A stretch of DNA of 41,623 nt from NCBI GenBank assembly GCA_003167255.1, contig PMTR01000054.1, forward strand, positions 1-41,623. The letters are read 5' to 3'. Source of the DNA: Bryobacterales bacterium (GTDB lineage Bacteria > Acidobacteriota > Terriglobia > Bryobacterales > Bryobacteraceae). The notes beneath the pieces are model-generated. The model did no database searches and was not told the origin of the DNA. It was given only the letters and a program-made list of their open reading frames with translations. Position 1 is the first letter of the stretch. The number at the start of each line of letters is the position of its first letter. Position numbers and translations under genes: made by a program. Shown piece after piece: positions 3,134 through 8,357 of the stretch.

Positions 3134-4419
3134 CACAGACTACGGAATCGGAGAAACTAGGAGACAAGGTGGCTACCTCGCAAAACACCGTGCAGACTGT
3201 ACCGGCCGCGCCCCGCACCGGATCGCGCGTCCGCATCGTCGCGCTCGTCGTGCTGTTCGTGCTGCTCGTGGCCGGCGCCATTGCCGTTTATCTGCACTAC
3301 CAGAACCGCGTCTCTTCAGACGACGCCAACGTCGACGGCCACATCGCCGCCATCGCTCCCAAAATATCCGGCAACGTGCTGGAGGTAGCGGTCCTAGACA
3401 ACCAGCCGGTCAAGGCTGGGCAGGTGCTGGTGCGCATCGACCCGCGCGATTACCAGGCCCGCGTCGACCAGGCCAAAGCCGCGTTGCTCGAGGCCGAAAG
3501 CAAGTTGCACTCGGCCCGGGTCACCATCCCGATGATCGACGAAACCACCCAGTCCGGCAATACGGCCGCCACCGCGCAACTGGCCGACGCCGAAGCCGAG
3601 GTGGCGCGCGCCCGCGCCTCCTGGCAACAGGCTTCCACTTCCGACCTCGCTGTTGCCGAGGCCAACGTGCGCACCCGCCAGGCCAGTAATGACCGCGCCC
3701 AGGCCGATCTGGCGCGCATGCAACCGCTGGTCGATAAGGCCGAAATCTCCCGCCAGCAGTTCGACGCCTACACCGCCGCGGCGCGCGTCACGGTGGGCGA
3801 ATTGCAGGCCGCTCAGCAGAAGCTGGCCTCCGCCCGGCAGGACGTCGAGATCCGCAAGGCCGCGCTCGATGCCGCCCAAACCAAGGTCAACCAGGCGCAA
3901 GCTCAGGTCGCAGCCTCCGTCGCCAACCGCAAACAGGTAGGCATCCGCGAAGCCGATGCCGGCACGGCCGCCGCTTCCGTGGAATCCTACCGCGCCACCC
4001 TGGAAGCCAACCAGTTGATGCTCAGCTACACCAACATTGTTTCGCCCATCGATGGCGTGGTCACGCGCAAGAGCGTCGAGGTCGGTCAGATCGTGCAGCC
4101 CGGCCAGGGCCTCATGACCGTGATCCCGCTCCAGGACACCTGGGTCACCGCCAACTTCAAGGAGACCCAACTGGCCGATGTGCGGCCCGGCCAGAGGGCC
4201 GAAATCCACGTCGACATGTACGGCCAGAGCGTCACCGGCCACGTCGATTCCATCGCCGGCGCCACCGGCTCGCGCCTCAGCCTGTTGCCGCCCGAAAACG
4301 CCACCGGTAATTTCGTGAAAGTGGTGCAACGCATCCCGGTGAAGATCCTGGTGGACCAAACCAACGGCCTGATCCTGCGGCCTGGAATGAACGTGGACGT
4401 CACCATTTTTACGAAGTGA
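3130..4419 (+). CDS. EmrA-like membrane fusion protein (HlyD family)
   Basis: Periplasmic adaptor linking the MFS pump to the TolC channel. The 429-residue protein has a short cytoplasmic N-terminus and one membrane anchor (about residues 35-57). It then has the first half of the biotinyl-lipoyl barrel ('SSDDANVDGHIAAIAPKISG'), a long Ala/Gln-rich coiled-coil hairpin (roughly 90-265), and the returning half ('NIVSPIDGVVTRKSVEVGQI'). A beta-barrel region follows, ending in 'LRPGMNVDVTI'. This order is diagnostic of EmrA/HlyD proteins. The start overlaps the MFS stop by 4 nt and the stop overlaps the next start (GTG at 4416), so at least four genes may be co-translated. The drug specificity is unknown. 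Confidence 0.93.
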   Translation: MTQTTESEKLGDKVATSQNTVQTVPAAPRTGSRVRIVALVVLFVLLVAGAIAVYLHYQNRVSSDDANVDGHIAAIAPKISGNVLEVAVLDNQPVKAGQVLVRIDPRDYQARVDQAKAALLEAESKLHSARVTIPMIDETTQSGNTAATAQLADAEAEVARARASWQQASTSDLAVAEANVRTRQASNDRAQADLARMQPLVDKAEISRQQFDAYTAAARVTVGELQAAQQKLASARQDVEIRKAALDAAQTKVNQAQAQVAASVANRKQVGIREADAGTAAASVESYRATLEANQLMLSYTNIVSPIDGVVTRKSVEVGQIVQPGQGLMTVIPLQDTWVTANFKETQLADVRPGQRAEIHVDMYGQSVTGHVDSIAGATGSRLSLLPPENATGNFVKVVQRIPVKILVDQTNGLILRPGMNVDVTIFTK

Positions 4420-5537
4420 TTCGTCTGGCTTCACTCGCGCTGCTCACCGCCGCGTTGTTCGCAAAAGACGAGCAGCGCCTGGTGCTGCTGCGCCAGGCCC
4501 AGGACTCTTTCGACCGCGTGGAAAAGGCCGCCTCCGCGCAACTCTCCGACGCCTCGGCGTGCGTGCAGTCGCAGGCCGCCATGATGCCGGTGGCCCTGCC
4601 GGCCGAGTTGGAGCTGCTGCATTTTCACAAAGGCTTTTGCCAGCTCGCCGTCGCCGCCATCACGCGCAATGCCGCCGGCTTCACCGATGCCGCCGCGGAG
4701 CTGGATCAAGGCAACGCCAAAACGCTGGCCTGGCTGGCGCGCGTTCAAGTGGATCCCGCCGCGCCGGCCCCTCAGTTCATCGACGAGAAGGCCGCCTTCG
4801 CGCCGACCGAACGCCTCTGGCTCGGCTGGATCGCATTGCGGCGCGGCGATCTGGATCAGGCCGCCCGCCGCTTCGCCGGCCAGGATGAAACCGGATGGGC
4901 CGCCTGGGCGGCCGGCCAGCAGGCTTTTCGCGAGGCACGTTACCGTGAGGCCGCCGCCGACTATTCCCAGGCCGTCGACGCCTGGTCGCGCGCCCGGCGC
5001 GATCCTTCGCCCGCCCTGATGGCGCGTCTCGCGCCGCCCGCCGATCTTCCCCAGGCGCTCACCGAACTGGGCGGCGCGCAACTTCTCTCCGGCTCGCTCG
5101 CCGCCGCCATCGCCACCTTGAACACCGCGCTCGAAGCTGGTCCCGATGCGCGCGCGTTTTACTACCGGGCACGCGCCCGCGAATTGGCCGGCCAGACCGA
5201 AGCCTCGCTGGCCGATTACAACCTGGCCGGCCGCGCGGCCTTCGCCAGCGCCCGGGAATTGTCGTCGGGCGAAGCGCACCTGTATCGCGGCATCCTGCTC
5301 TACCGCCGCAAAGACTTCGTCCGCGCCGAAGACGAGTTTACGAGCGCCCTCAACCTGGACGTTCCCGAAGCCCTGCGGCCGGACGCCTCCGCCTGGCGTC
5401 ATCTCTCCGCCGTAGCCGCCGGTTTCTGCGCCGCCGCGCGGGAATCCCTCGAGCGATCGCTCCGCGCCGTCTCGCCCTTTTTTCCCAAAGACGAGGCCAG
5501 GACGCTGGCGGCCGGGTGTGTTACAGTGCAGGGTAAG
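4416..5537 (+). CDS. Secreted TPR-type protein; open frame runs into ssb without a stop
   Basis: About 374 residues precede the SSB start. A short hydrophobic signal-like segment (LASLALLTAALFA) is followed by helical repeats rich in Ala/Leu/Arg with TPR-like periodicity, e.g. 'GSLAAAIATLNTALEAGPDA' and 'RKDFVRAEDEFTSALNLD'. The GTG start at 4416 overlaps the adaptor stop, so it is the last member of the efflux operon by layout. No stop codon separates it from ssb: the same frame continues to 6032, giving a formal 538-codon TPR-SSB fusion. A signal-bearing TPR joined to a cytoplasmic DNA-binding protein makes little topological sense, so I favour two proteins with an internal ssb start and a lost or missed TPR stop. 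A one-base shift would end the TPR at a TAA just before the ssb ATG. The function of the TPR protein is unknown. Confidence 0.7.
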
Positions 5538-6032
5538 ATGGCATCAAAAAGCGTCAACAAAGTCATTCTGATCGGGCATCTTGGCAAAGATGCCGAGACC
5601 AAATTCACGCCCAGCGGAATTTCGATTTCCAAGTTTTCCCTGGCGACGAATCGTCGAACCAAAGACCAGCAGTCCGGAGAATGGAAAGACATCACGGACT
5701 GGCACAATATCGTGATCTGGAAAACGGAGCATGTCGCCACGTACCTGCTCAAAGGTACGCGCATCTACGTGGAAGGCCGGCTCGAAACTCGCAGCTACGA
5801 CGACAAGGAAGGGCAGAAGAAGTATTTCACCGAAGTGATCTGCGAAGCTCAAAGCCTGGTCTTGCTGGGTGGCGGCGGTGGTCGCGGCGACGCTCCCGCG
5901 GAGAGCTCCGGCGATTTTGACCGCCCCGTCTCGATGCCGCGTTCGCAGCGTCCGGCCCCCGCCGCGGCGCCCGCCGCCCCCGCCGCCGACGAGTTCAACC
6001 AGGGCATCACCGACGACGACGTGCCGTTCTAG
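5538..6032 (+). CDS. ssb: Single-stranded DNA-binding protein (SSB)
   Basis: Cytoplasmic OB-fold protein that coats ssDNA in replication, repair and recombination and recruits partner enzymes through its acidic C-terminal tip. The 164-residue product begins 'MASKSVNKVILIGHLGKDAE', has the conserved 'FSLATNRR', 'TDWHNIVIW' and 'GTRIYVEGRLETRSY' OB-fold blocks (about 1-110), then a Gly/Pro/Ala-rich linker and the tip DDDVPF (E. coli: DDDIPF). The start at 5538 is preceded by GGGTAAG, a plausible ribosome site, but the frame is also open through the upstream TPR gene. Two further genes downstream (ending 7668 and 8357) carry the same tip, which makes this locus unusual. Whether it is the main housekeeping SSB cannot be decided from this window. 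Confidence 0.93.
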   Translation: MASKSVNKVILIGHLGKDAETKFTPSGISISKFSLATNRRTKDQQSGEWKDITDWHNIVIWKTEHVATYLLKGTRIYVEGRLETRSYDDKEGQKKYFTEVICEAQSLVLLGGGGGRGDAPAESSGDFDRPVSMPRSQRPAPAAAPAAPAADEFNQGITDDDVPF

Positions 6033-6051
6033 GTTTTAGGGCGCAAAGGTC

Positions 6052-6612
6052 ATGGGCAGGCCGGCAACATTGCTCGAAGGGCTTTGCGGTCACGCGTTAT
6101 CGCTCGGCGCTCAATCGATCGAGGTGCAGCGCAAAGACGGCCGCGAATGGGTCTTCGCCCGCCAAGGCGCCGTGGGGTTCGGGATCGCGAGTTACCCAAG
6201 CTCCGGCGCATATGCGAAAGAATTGCGCGGGAACCTCTACGCCGCCGCCAAGAGACGCGTTCGCACCGTCGTCCATGGACAGGTTTTCATTCTTAAGGTT
6301 CGCGTCTTCGACAGTTTCGGCGAGGACGCCTTTGACGTGCAGATGGATCCGGCCCCGAAACTCGATCCTTCAACCAAGCCTTCCTTCACGGCAAAACAGG
6401 GCCAATACCTGGCCTTCATTCACTACTACACGAAGATCCACCGCCAGGCTCCCGCGGAATCGGATCTGGAGCACTACTTCCGGGTTTCCGCGCCATCGAT
6501 ACACGGAATGGTCAAGACCCTGGAACGCAACGGCCTCATCGAAAAGACCCCGCGGCAGGCGCGCTCCATTCGCCTCCTCGTGCAACCGGAGCACCTGCCA
6601 CCATTGGAGTAG
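6052..6612 (+). CDS. LexA-type winged-helix protein without peptidase domain
   Basis: A 186-residue protein of unknown function. The C-terminal part (about 110-178) reads like the LexA N-terminal DNA-binding domain: 'FTAKQGQYLAFIHYYTKIH' is followed by a helix-turn-helix region (APSIHGMVKTLERNGLIEK) and a basic wing (RQARSIRLLV). The N-terminal ~105 residues are a small mixed alpha/beta region ('SIEVQRKDGREWVFARQG') that I do not recognise. LexA's Ser/Lys autopeptidase domain is absent, so it is a LexA-like DNA binder in inverted arrangement rather than LexA. It has a good ribosome site (AAAGG) before 6052, starts 20 nt after ssb and ends 3 nt before the next gene, so it is probably co-transcribed with both. 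It may regulate the operon or bind DNA structurally. Confidence 0.8.
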   Translation: MGRPATLLEGLCGHALSLGAQSIEVQRKDGREWVFARQGAVGFGIASYPSSGAYAKELRGNLYAAAKRRVRTVVHGQVFILKVRVFDSFGEDAFDVQMDPAPKLDPSTKPSFTAKQGQYLAFIHYYTKIHRQAPAESDLEHYFRVSAPSIHGMVKTLERNGLIEKTPRQARSIRLLVQPEHLPPLE

Positions 6613-6615
6613 CTC

Positions 6616-7668
6616 ATGAAACCATCAAATGACGACGCCTGGGCTGAAGCGAAGCGCCGTTGCCGTCTCTCCGTCGAAGACGTGCGCATGGCCAAGGAAC
6701 TCGGCTTCCAGCCCAAGTCCCTGATCAAGAATATTCCCGCTCCGACCCAGCAATGGAAGGCGCCGGTGCGTGAATGGGTGAGGGATCTCTACGAAAAGGA
6801 GATCGGCTCGCGTAAACCGGCAAGTGCCGCGCCGGCCCCGCCAGTGGTGCGCAAGCAGGTGATCGAATTCCGCAACGCCGAGTATCCGTGGCCCGACAAG
6901 CCGGACATTCCCGAGCGGGTGATGGTAGACCCGTTCGACGCCTTGGATGAAGGGGACGCGGACATCTTTGGGGGCAGGTGGGAACCGCCCTCGGAGACGG
7001 ACATCGACGACGAGAACGCTCTCCTGCTTCGCCGCCAGAGCCTGTTCCGCTGGGGCGCGCAGTCAATTGCGATCGCCATGAGCGAGTTGCCGGAGGTCCA
7101 GAAGGTGGCGGCGTTCGGGGCGGTTGCCCAGCCGTTGACAACGGAGGTTCCACGGTTCCGCGAGTTTCGCCGCCACCGGATCGAGATCCTGCACGAGTGC
7201 GCCGATCTGGATCTGGCGGTTTGGACAACCGACCTGTCGCGTCTCAAGGCACTGAAGAGCGCGATGAATCGCGGGCTATCTTCCGTGCATGACACGCCAT
7301 GGGGAGGCGTCGCCCATCATCAAGTGGATGTCCATATATTCGATGCCGAAAGCGGCGTCTATCGGGGCCGGCAATGCATTTTTGGGCAGTGTCCGAAGCC
7401 AGGCAAGCGCGAATGTCTTGTCCGAGGGTGTGGAGCGCAGCCGTTCCTGCAGCAGTTCCAAAAATACCGGTTCAACCCCGCGCAATTCGAAGGCGAGCCA
7501 AGAGTAATTTTGTTCGACAGGGCCAGCGGATTCCTGGTTCGCCCGCCGCGAATCGACGCCAAGCCGACCAGGGTCGTTCCTCGCGCCAAGAAAGACCATG
7601 AGGATGATGAGACTTGGAATCGCGACGATTTCAGCAAGGGGATCACCGACGACGACGTGCCGTTCTAG
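6616..7668 (+). CDS. Nucleotidyltransferase-like protein ending in an SSB-type acidic tip
   Basis: A 350-residue protein in parts. Residues 1-62 form a compact helical domain ('EDVRMAKELGFQPKSLIKNI...QWKAPVREWVRDLYE') seen in uncharacterised proteins. A linker and acidic stretch (about 63-140) follow. Residues 160-245 resemble a Pol-beta-type nucleotidyltransferase core: 'AFGAV' at 167-170, an Asp pair D197/D199 (ADLDLAVW) and a third Asp D238 on a strand (VDVHIFD), though the loop between the G motif and the Asp pair is long. A four-Cys cluster (C254, C259, C267, C272) is a likely zinc site. The last residues are GITDDDVPF, identical to the end of the upstream SSB. It lies 3 nt after the winged-helix gene. 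Enzymatic activity is inferred only from the Asp pattern; the tip suggests docking on SSB-partner proteins. Confidence 0.75.
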   Translation: MKPSNDDAWAEAKRRCRLSVEDVRMAKELGFQPKSLIKNIPAPTQQWKAPVREWVRDLYEKEIGSRKPASAAPAPPVVRKQVIEFRNAEYPWPDKPDIPERVMVDPFDALDEGDADIFGGRWEPPSETDIDDENALLLRRQSLFRWGAQSIAIAMSELPEVQKVAAFGAVAQPLTTEVPRFREFRRHRIEILHECADLDLAVWTTDLSRLKALKSAMNRGLSSVHDTPWGGVAHHQVDVHIFDAESGVYRGRQCIFGQCPKPGKRECLVRGCGAQPFLQQFQKYRFNPAQFEGEPRVILFDRASGFLVRPPRIDAKPTRVVPRAKKDHEDDETWNRDDFSKGITDDDVPF

Positions 7669-7786
7669 CGAACCGCTGCCAACCGTTTCAGATGGAGCCG
7701 CTTAATTAATAATGGTGAGAACTTCGCGGAGGTCAGCGTACTACATCGTTTAGTCCGTGGCTTTAGAAGTTCGTTCACGTATAGCC

Positions 7787-7840
7787 AGCGCGCTTGCTAA
7801 CGCGCGCGGCTCCGATCAGAGCCGCGACCGTTAGGGAGCG
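7787..7840. repeat. Dispersed palindromic repeat (CGCTTGCTAACGCGCGCGGC core)
   Basis: An intergenic, strongly self-complementary stretch: GGCTC/GAGCC arms flank CGATCA and the left side carries the core CGCTTGCTAACGCGCGCGGC. Nearly the same core recurs twice in tandem at 11041-11154. It lies in the 230-nt gap before the DUF669-like gene. It is a REP-like dispersed element; a role as part of the leader of the downstream gene is possible but not shown. Confidence 0.6.
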
Positions 7841-7898
7841 ATCTTCGTGGAACACGATACCGTATTTAGGAAGTAGTGTACTTAGTGGAGGTTATTGC

Positions 7899-8357
7899 AT
7901 GGCCTTACCTATCGACAGCGACGCGCCGGCGGCCGATCTGGCCCGGTTTGATGATGAATGGACGAAGACCGCGGTTTCGTCAGACGAAATGTACAGTGAC
8001 ATTCCGGATGGGAGCTACGATGCCATCATCGAAGATGCGCGCGTCTCGGAGACTACCTCAACCGGGCGCCCGGTAGTCATTTGGAAACTACGCATCCAAG
8101 GGTCGCAGGCGGCGAACCGCGTTGTGACGAAGAACCGCGTGATCACCGAGAATACTCTCGGGTACCTCAGAGAAGATCTGGAGAAGTGCCGGTTGCAGGT
8201 ATCGCGCCTCTCCGAGTTGCCCGCCCGGCTGGGAGAATTGGTGGATCGTCCAGTTGGCCTTGAAAAGCGCACGAAGGACGGAAAGACCAATTTCTACTTC
8301 CGCTGGACAGCCAATCGAACCAGCCACAATGGTCTCGGTGACGACGTGCCGTTCTAG
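7899..8357 (+). CDS. DUF669-like ssDNA-binding protein with SSB-type tip
   Basis: A 152-residue protein with the layout of the phage-type DUF669/OB-fold SSB family. An acidic N-terminal lead-in is followed by 'IPDGSYDAIIEDARVSETTS', a core strand block 'GRPVVIWKLRIQG', a helix (TLGYLREDLEKC), the strand 'VDRPVGLEKRTKDGKTNFYF' and a short tail ending GDDVPF. The family match is by pattern recognition and moderate. The start at 7899 is supported by a GGAG ribosome site at 7887-7890; the frame is open further upstream but that part crosses the palindromic repeat. The acidic tip matches that of SSB and of the nucleotidyltransferase-like protein, and the last 18 nt are identical to the ssb 3' end. 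It probably binds ssDNA and offers the same docking peptide as SSB. The 230-nt gap suggests its own promoter. Confidence 0.75.
   Translation: MALPIDSDAPAADLARFDDEWTKTAVSSDEMYSDIPDGSYDAIIEDARVSETTSTGRPVVIWKLRIQGSQAANRVVTKNRVITENTLGYLREDLEKCRLQVSRLSELPARLGELVDRPVGLEKRTKDGKTNFYFRWTANRTSHNGLGDDVPF

Follow-up and report, generated by a model that had tools for sequence, protein, structure and literature searches.

An SSB-like C-terminal tip on a predicted nucleotidyltransferase encoded close to ssb in a Bryobacterales bacterium

In a 41,623-nt stretch of DNA from a Bryobacterales bacterium (NCBI GenBank assembly GCA_003167255.1, contig PMTR01000054.1; this whole stretch is referred to as the window), a forward-strand gene (6616–7668) encodes a 350-aa nucleotidyltransferase-like (NTase) protein ending in DDDVPF (encoded at 7648–7665), as does the single-stranded DNA-binding protein (SSB) encoded upstream. 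In bacteria, recruitment to single-stranded DNA (ssDNA) relies chiefly on the SSB tip, which is regarded as a property of SSB. Tips of this kind are conserved in the long form of the NTase and absent from a short form, and the genes repeatedly lie in proximity to ssb. We consider the protein, with a probability of about 0.6, to be an SSB-tail mimic placing an enzyme at the partners of SSB; for the docking step alone, the tip quite likely fits into SSB-partner pockets.

Domain structure and C-terminus of the NTase-like protein

The protein starts with a four-helix domain (residues 1–68, 6616–6819) of an unnamed family, for which a fold search returned nothing clear, and continues with the predicted NTase core (residues 127–305, 6994–7530). 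The signature of NTases consists of a G-[GS] motif, a DxD and a third acid, to which G-A/S, D197xD199 and D238 of the core would correspond. In an alignment of 39 rows, the DxD is invariant (39/39) and every row has D or E as its third acid (39/39), while the first motif is GS in 34 rows and GA in the window and four further rows. The four-cysteine site (residues 254–272, 7375–7431), noticed in a previous reading of the DNA made without database searches (the sequence-only reading), is real and conserved in the same alignment, with C254 present in 38 rows and C259, C267 and C272 in all 39.

An AlphaFold2 model built from 39 sequences (mean pLDDT 79) predicts four helices at the N-terminus, a core that is confident for the most part and disorder from about residue 315 onward (pLDDT < 50 at residues 315–329 and 334–350), with the SSB-like tip sitting on this predicted disordered tail (7558–7665). 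The best fold matches of the core are NTases, aminoglycoside adenylyltransferases, MNT antitoxins, DncV and Pol lambda, with VIA-align giving Z up to 7.7 at 107 aligned residues and an rmsd of 4.2. By sequence, no family could be assigned from Pfam, PHROG and NCBIfam, where only weak matches at chance level appeared, and the search against PDB sequences gave no match; PADLOC returned none either, for the NTase as well as for SSB and a DUF669-like protein encoded downstream. With MNT and minimal NTases (HEPN-MNT antitoxins, AadA/ANT), the window protein shares the DxD and, by a tentative fold prediction, the Pol-beta fold, but it differs from these by the N-terminal domain, the four-cysteine site, the SSB tip and GA in place of GS. 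A HEPN partner was not found among the Pfam matches of the ssb, winged-helix and DUF669-like neighbours.

The sequence-only reading had reported a shared tip on the products of ssb, the NTase gene and the DUF669-like gene, and this is borne out by their translated ends GITDDDVPF, GITDDDVPF and GLGDDVPF, respectively. Scanning the whole genome (7.35 Mb, 98.85% complete) for [DE][DE][FILMV]PF followed by a stop (pattern TRR, by which TGG was also admitted) gave five places, three of which are these genes, while the remaining two do not terminate any open frame reaching 20 codons. The only three open frames of this minimum length ending in the pattern are thus all in the window cluster. A chance origin of the NTase tip was rejected, given the three tipped frames genome-wide plus the recurrence in long-form relatives described below. 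Compared with the C-terminal tip of bacterial SSB (DDDIPF), the NTase shares the disordered tail, as predicted, the terminal Phe, the Pro and the acidic run (DDDVPF), but here the carriers of the tip include an NTase and further proteins that are not SSBs, with docking being a prediction. In line with the earlier claim that this arrangement is undescribed, searches of the open-licence literature, judged by titles and the beginnings of abstracts, listed no report of an SSB tip on an NTase or on any other enzyme that is not an SSB; the one exception is a purported motif in DdrB, mentioned in a passage of PMC3834827. DdrB from Deinococcus is, unlike the NTase, an ssDNA-annealing protein, and its motif is not needed for radioresistance.

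Distribution of the tip among relatives and distance from ssb

Relatives of the NTase were obtained from a pattern-based scan of a genome collection comprising one genome per species (84,980 species), and the best 80 of 89 loci were kept. After dropping loci in which no single open frame covers the match (L043, L047, L053, L055, L068, L079 and L092) or whose ends are broken (L104 and L106), the final set amounts to 72 rows, window included. Among these, a long form, composed of the unnamed N-terminal helical domain and the NTase core, can be distinguished from a short form without the N-terminal domain; presence of this domain was assigned by hand in L033 (starting at residue 34), L039 (domain end only) and L040 (separate neighbouring frame). 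Across distant relatives, the SSB-like tip is present in 11 of the 15 long forms (window, L028, L030–L036, L038 and L039; 10/14 when leaving out the window), whereas it was found in none of the 57 short forms (Fisher, 4.5e-10, with relatedness ignored), nor in any of 21 viral short forms. On a quick tree, the fewest changes required are four for the tip and four for the N-terminal domain. Tipped long forms span Acidobacteriota (mostly titled Bryobacterales), Phycisphaerales and Opitutus/Opitutia, showing the variants DDEDVPF, GDDLPF, DEDAPF, DLDVPF, DEDIPF, PNEVPF, DAEIPF, DSEPF and DGEVPF, and the linkers before the tips diverge widely while the tips stay. As a control, 737 non-overlapping open reading frames (ORFs) of at least 100 aa from the 80 loci were inspected, and only 11 end in PF, namely nine long NTases and two SSBs (as ORFs were picked in order of length, some further SSBs and the NTase of L036 are not in this count). 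A search of phage sequences gave no NTase match, and of eight plasmid records four were read, none of them tipped. Homologues lacking the tip and lying away from ssb, which the sequence-only reading had named as speaking against its proposal, do exist in the short form and in three of the 15 long forms (L037, L040 and L059), but this does not hold for the long form as a group. By these comparisons, the tip of the NTase is not a local accident.

The co-location with ssb, also put forward previously, applies to part of the relatives. In six of the nine rows of long forms from Acidobacteriota (window, L028, L029, L030, L031 and L033, the last with its N-terminal domain cut), ssb is located 38 nt to 2 kb upstream, while no upstream ssb was seen in L032, L035 (covering only about 640 nt upstream) and L037. 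Remnants of the NTase gene are present 3' of ssb in L007 and L213. Outside Acidobacteriota, the tip is also kept without ssb nearby, as in L034 with a distance of 1.9 to 3.3 Mb on the chromosome, taking either route, and in L038 with ssb on another contig. The tipped NTase of L032 also has its ssb on another contig, and in the genomes of L035 and L036 no SSB was found. Since L034 and L038 possess the tip without a nearby ssb, it is not merely a product of nearness. The final 45 nt of the window's ssb (5988–6032) and NTase gene (7624–7668), both on the forward strand, are identical at 41 positions, a match absent from the sequence-only reading, and because of it the NTase tail was probably copied from, or overwritten by, the host's own ssb end. 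The same comparison in the other five ssb-linked loci gives 21–27 of 45.

Candidate roles of the tipped NTase and tips on other proteins

For docking, catalysis and substrate of the NTase, we infer the following course. The 6616–7668 product would be a two-part enzyme, with a helical domain and a small NTase of the Pol-beta/MNT type bearing the four-cysteine site, and its disordered tail would present a copied SSB docking tip. This tip would most likely enter the pocket by which RecO and similar SSB partners receive the SSB tip, or return onto SSB, thereby placing the NTase at ssDNA, where a partner protein or the end of a nucleic acid would be nucleotidylated, with stress or anti-phage settings as the likeliest context. 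RecO, a known binder of the SSB tip, is encoded in the window genome. According to passages of PMC10164576, SSB partners hold the tip via a pocket for the last Phe and basic residues, and removal of this Phe abolishes binding. Several findings weigh against the proposed mimicry, however. Fold scores of the core are middling (best Foldseek E value 0.013, none below 0.001), and having GA instead of GS, catalysis may be weak. Moreover, four of the 15 long forms are tipless (L029, L037, L040 and L059), among them the second nearest relative L029, which ends in ETPY despite an upstream ssb, and some tips are loose (LDSEPF in L038, DEDAPF in L031).

SSB-like tips on other proteins were surveyed in a census of 61 genomes of the same bacterial family (pattern D[DE][FILMV]PF plus stop). 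Places with the pattern exist in 58 genomes and are mostly ssb among those read. Because a reversed-pattern control gave 61 places compared to 100, and most true matches are ssb, the raw DNA count is uninformative and proves nothing alone; the census carries weight where a family has more than one tipped member. Of the 100 places, 68 were read, comprising 30 initial loci, 34 further ones mainly from genomes with several matches and four of the own genome, so that they are not a random sample. Among the 64 places from the other genomes, six (L172, L184, L203, L210, L218 and L235) do not close an ORF of 40 aa, the 66 census ORFs contain duplicates (seven regions overlap others), and antisense, very short or loose cases (L212, L228, L239 and the second ORF of L201) were set aside. 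For tips seen in a single genome (L204, L216, L233 and L236), chance may be responsible. Besides several unnamed proteins, the tip is found on a weakly Rad52-like protein (L220), a Hypoth_Ymh protein (L205, FKGITDDDVPF; PF09509, E = 9.3e-28; PADLOC PD-Lambda-3_B and Aga_HEPN), a weakly NDT/TIR-like protein (L207, FEQGIADDDVPF), an AbiJ_NTD5-TIR-like protein (L200, ETDDDMPF; PF18865, E = 1.4e-28; PADLOC TIR effectors) and a protein kinase (L230, 1984–3120, HEEDDIPF) matching the PADLOC profiles PD-T4-6 and mads, which may reflect only the kinase domain. Searching 200 genomes with the C-terminal part of the kinase resulted in three matches, all tipped (HEEDDIPF, AEDDDVPF and VSDDDVPF); as the query included the tip and L230 and L254 were first found by the tip pattern, the L253 kinase (50% identity) is the only independent test of a tip in this family. 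A relative of the AbiJ protein from a viral contig (L245, 49% identity) ends in EEDFEIPF, which is the one clear tip among eight viral relatives, with one further being loose (L244, NDWYIPF) and the others having none. None of the three plasmid AbiJ relatives read out of 24 records is tipped, and no viral relative was found for the Hypoth_Ymh protein.

The N-terminal domain of the NTase also occurs in two kinds of proteins without NTase. In the first, of about 190 aa, five of eight members are tipped (L008, L010, L011, L136 and L138; DDDIPF, DDEIPF or DDEEIPF), L006 is tipless, and L015 and L141 are broken. The second kind shows no clear tip in 13 members, with a loose DGDPF in the viral L129. 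By eye, L147, another member of the about-190-aa family, is located near integrase-like and large ATPase-like genes.

From these cases, the SSB tip could tentatively be regarded as a portable address tag, by which unrelated accessory effectors (NTase, protein kinase, AbiJ-NTD5/TIR-like, Hypoth_Ymh and NDT-like proteins), having acquired the tail of the host SSB, would dock to the same SSB-partner pockets at ssDNA and be displaced or triggered there when a phage takes over SSB traffic, although we regard this generalization as rather unlikely. If other enzymes carry the tip, more proteins use SSB-tip pockets, or compete for them, than have been listed so far. If the idea is true, effectors could be found by a simple C-terminal mark, and removing the last Phe would be a direct single-residue test of how accessory enzymes, some perhaps defensive, are placed where replication is stalled or invaded by phage.

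Among the alternatives to this reading, an anti-phage effector ranks highest, with the tip holding the enzyme at SSB partners and phage ssDNA takeover or phage SSB acting as the trigger; we regard it as possible at less than even odds. It would be in line with the tipped AbiJ_NTD5-TIR-like, Hypoth_Ymh, weakly NDT/TIR-like and kinase proteins in the same bacterial family, and with the neighbours of two tipped NTases, i.e., CAP12/Pycsar-TIR and NDT-like genes in L033 and Mrr and Mrr-NACHT genes in L034. Phage SSBs are described as triggers of Retron-Eco8 (PMC12887533) and AbpAB (PMC10732053); passages of the latter paper carried nothing bearing on the SSB tail, and a word search of the Hna paper (PMC13381803) yielded nothing on it. 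On the other hand, the NTase itself lacks a PADLOC match, its commonest neighbour is the housekeeping ssb, and the neighbours scanned for families were those of just five loci with a tipped or related NTase (L028, L029, L033, L034 and L036). A role in defence is plausible, with the defence-like neighbours being suggestive, while a defence setting for the tipped NTase is somewhat less probable than its opposite.

An improbable alternative is a decoy or regulator that mainly occupies SSB-tip pockets and competes with SSB, tuning repair and restart enzymes with a maybe inactive NTase core. The tip being nearly a copy of the host SSB tail would suit such a competitor, and the replacement of GS by GA in the window lineage also fits. 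However, a pure decoy would need neither the invariant DxD nor the four (nearly) invariant cysteines, and a monovalent tail should, from general knowledge, compete poorly against tetrameric SSB. Finally, a functionless by-product of recombination with the adjacent ssb, as might be suspected from the DNA-level tail copy in the window, is very improbable, as the tips at other ssb-linked loci are no DNA copies and loci distant from ssb have kept theirs, this conservation weakening the case.

Gene neighbourhood and history of the window locus

The cluster is flanked by what we take to be efflux genes, before a TPR-like frame preceding ssb, and cytochrome bd genes on the opposite strand, after the DUF669-like gene. 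On the forward strand, ssb (5538–6032; PF00436, E = 7.4e-33; product end FNQGITDDDVPF) is the sole PF00436 SSB match in a search of the genome and is followed by a gene for a 186-aa winged-helix protein (6052–6612), the NTase gene and the DUF669-like gene. With gaps of 19 nt between ssb and the winged-helix gene and 3 nt between the latter and the NTase gene, the tight unit proposed previously (20 and 3 nt) holds for these three, whereas the DUF669-like gene is outside it because 230 nt separate its ATG from the NTase gene. The TPR-like frame continues stop-free into ssb, forming a single open frame (4416–6032) of 538 aa if read through, and the same unbroken frame is present in a genome of the same genus (L201, 493–2094, 533 aa). 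Hence, a TPR-SSB fusion product is possible alongside SSB made from its own ATG. A TPR-like gene upstream of ssb also occurs elsewhere, e.g., in L194, where it is in a different frame, and L219.

For the winged-helix protein, the LexA-type label of the sequence-only reading is weak. Its C-terminal part matches phrog_3502 and weakly LexA, but the score for LexA_DNA_bind (E = 3.3e-4, 20.8 bits) is below the cut-off of 23.7, and the single PADLOC match, to CARF, is weak as well (E = 0.029). Relatives near ssb were found in L029, L030, L190 and L226, and the winged-helix gene is a frequent but not constant neighbour. In both L213 and L190, a HEAT-repeat-like protein (by eye) is encoded somewhat further 3' of ssb.

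The DUF669-like protein (152 aa; 7899–8357, forward strand, with 7899 as the best ATG start) gives 19 bits with PF05037 (cut-off 21) and matches phrog_7778 (SSB) at E = 1.4e-4. Like the phage-type SSBs of the DUF669 family it is tipped, and with its weak DUF669/phrog_7778 match it is probably a member of this known kind; differing from these, it is encoded near a housekeeping ssb, between the NTase gene and the presumed cytochrome bd genes. DUF669 proteins are described as distant, phage-type SSBs using such tails, the last six residues of the HK620 protein (tip NDYPPF) being needed for Sak4 stimulation (PMC5928155, PMC8093625). The DUF669 tip is therefore ordinary. Membership of DUF669 in a fixed NTase module was rejected, since none of the relatives' 80 NTase loci gave a tblastn match (E up to 1e-4), the gene is separated from the NTase gene by 230 nt, and such a tip is already known from the literature. 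Further DUF669-like proteins with a tip, all found through the tip pattern, are those of L176, L189, L208, L221 and L231. In another genome (G063; L202, 2614–4127), a pair of DUF669 genes lies 3' of ssb, with a tipless first product and a second one ending in CDDDIPF, which shows only ssb as recurrent neighbour. A second DUF669 protein of the window genome, on contig C31, has the looser tip DALVPF, in a setting that looks like a phage-type replication module.

The same-genus genome G1057 (82% complete) lacks, at the corresponding site, the genes for the winged-helix protein and the NTase as well as most of the DUF669-like gene, and a short spacer and a 3' scar of DUF669 without stop are followed by the shared downstream genes. 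The segment (approximately 6033–8333, forward strand) is thus accessory and was probably deleted in G1057. Other tipped genes match their own ssb at 17–26 of the last 30 nt, with no recent copy like that in the window. The ssb gene itself is a mosaic. A part comprising most of the OB fold and the linker (5598–5957, forward strand) shows only 53–80% identity per 60-column block to the same-genus genome, compared to 82–98% in the blocks on either side, except for one with 60%, and 92–100% in the tail (5958–6032). The core of SSB is closer to L175 (79%) and L213 (78%), while flanks and tail match the same-genus genome.

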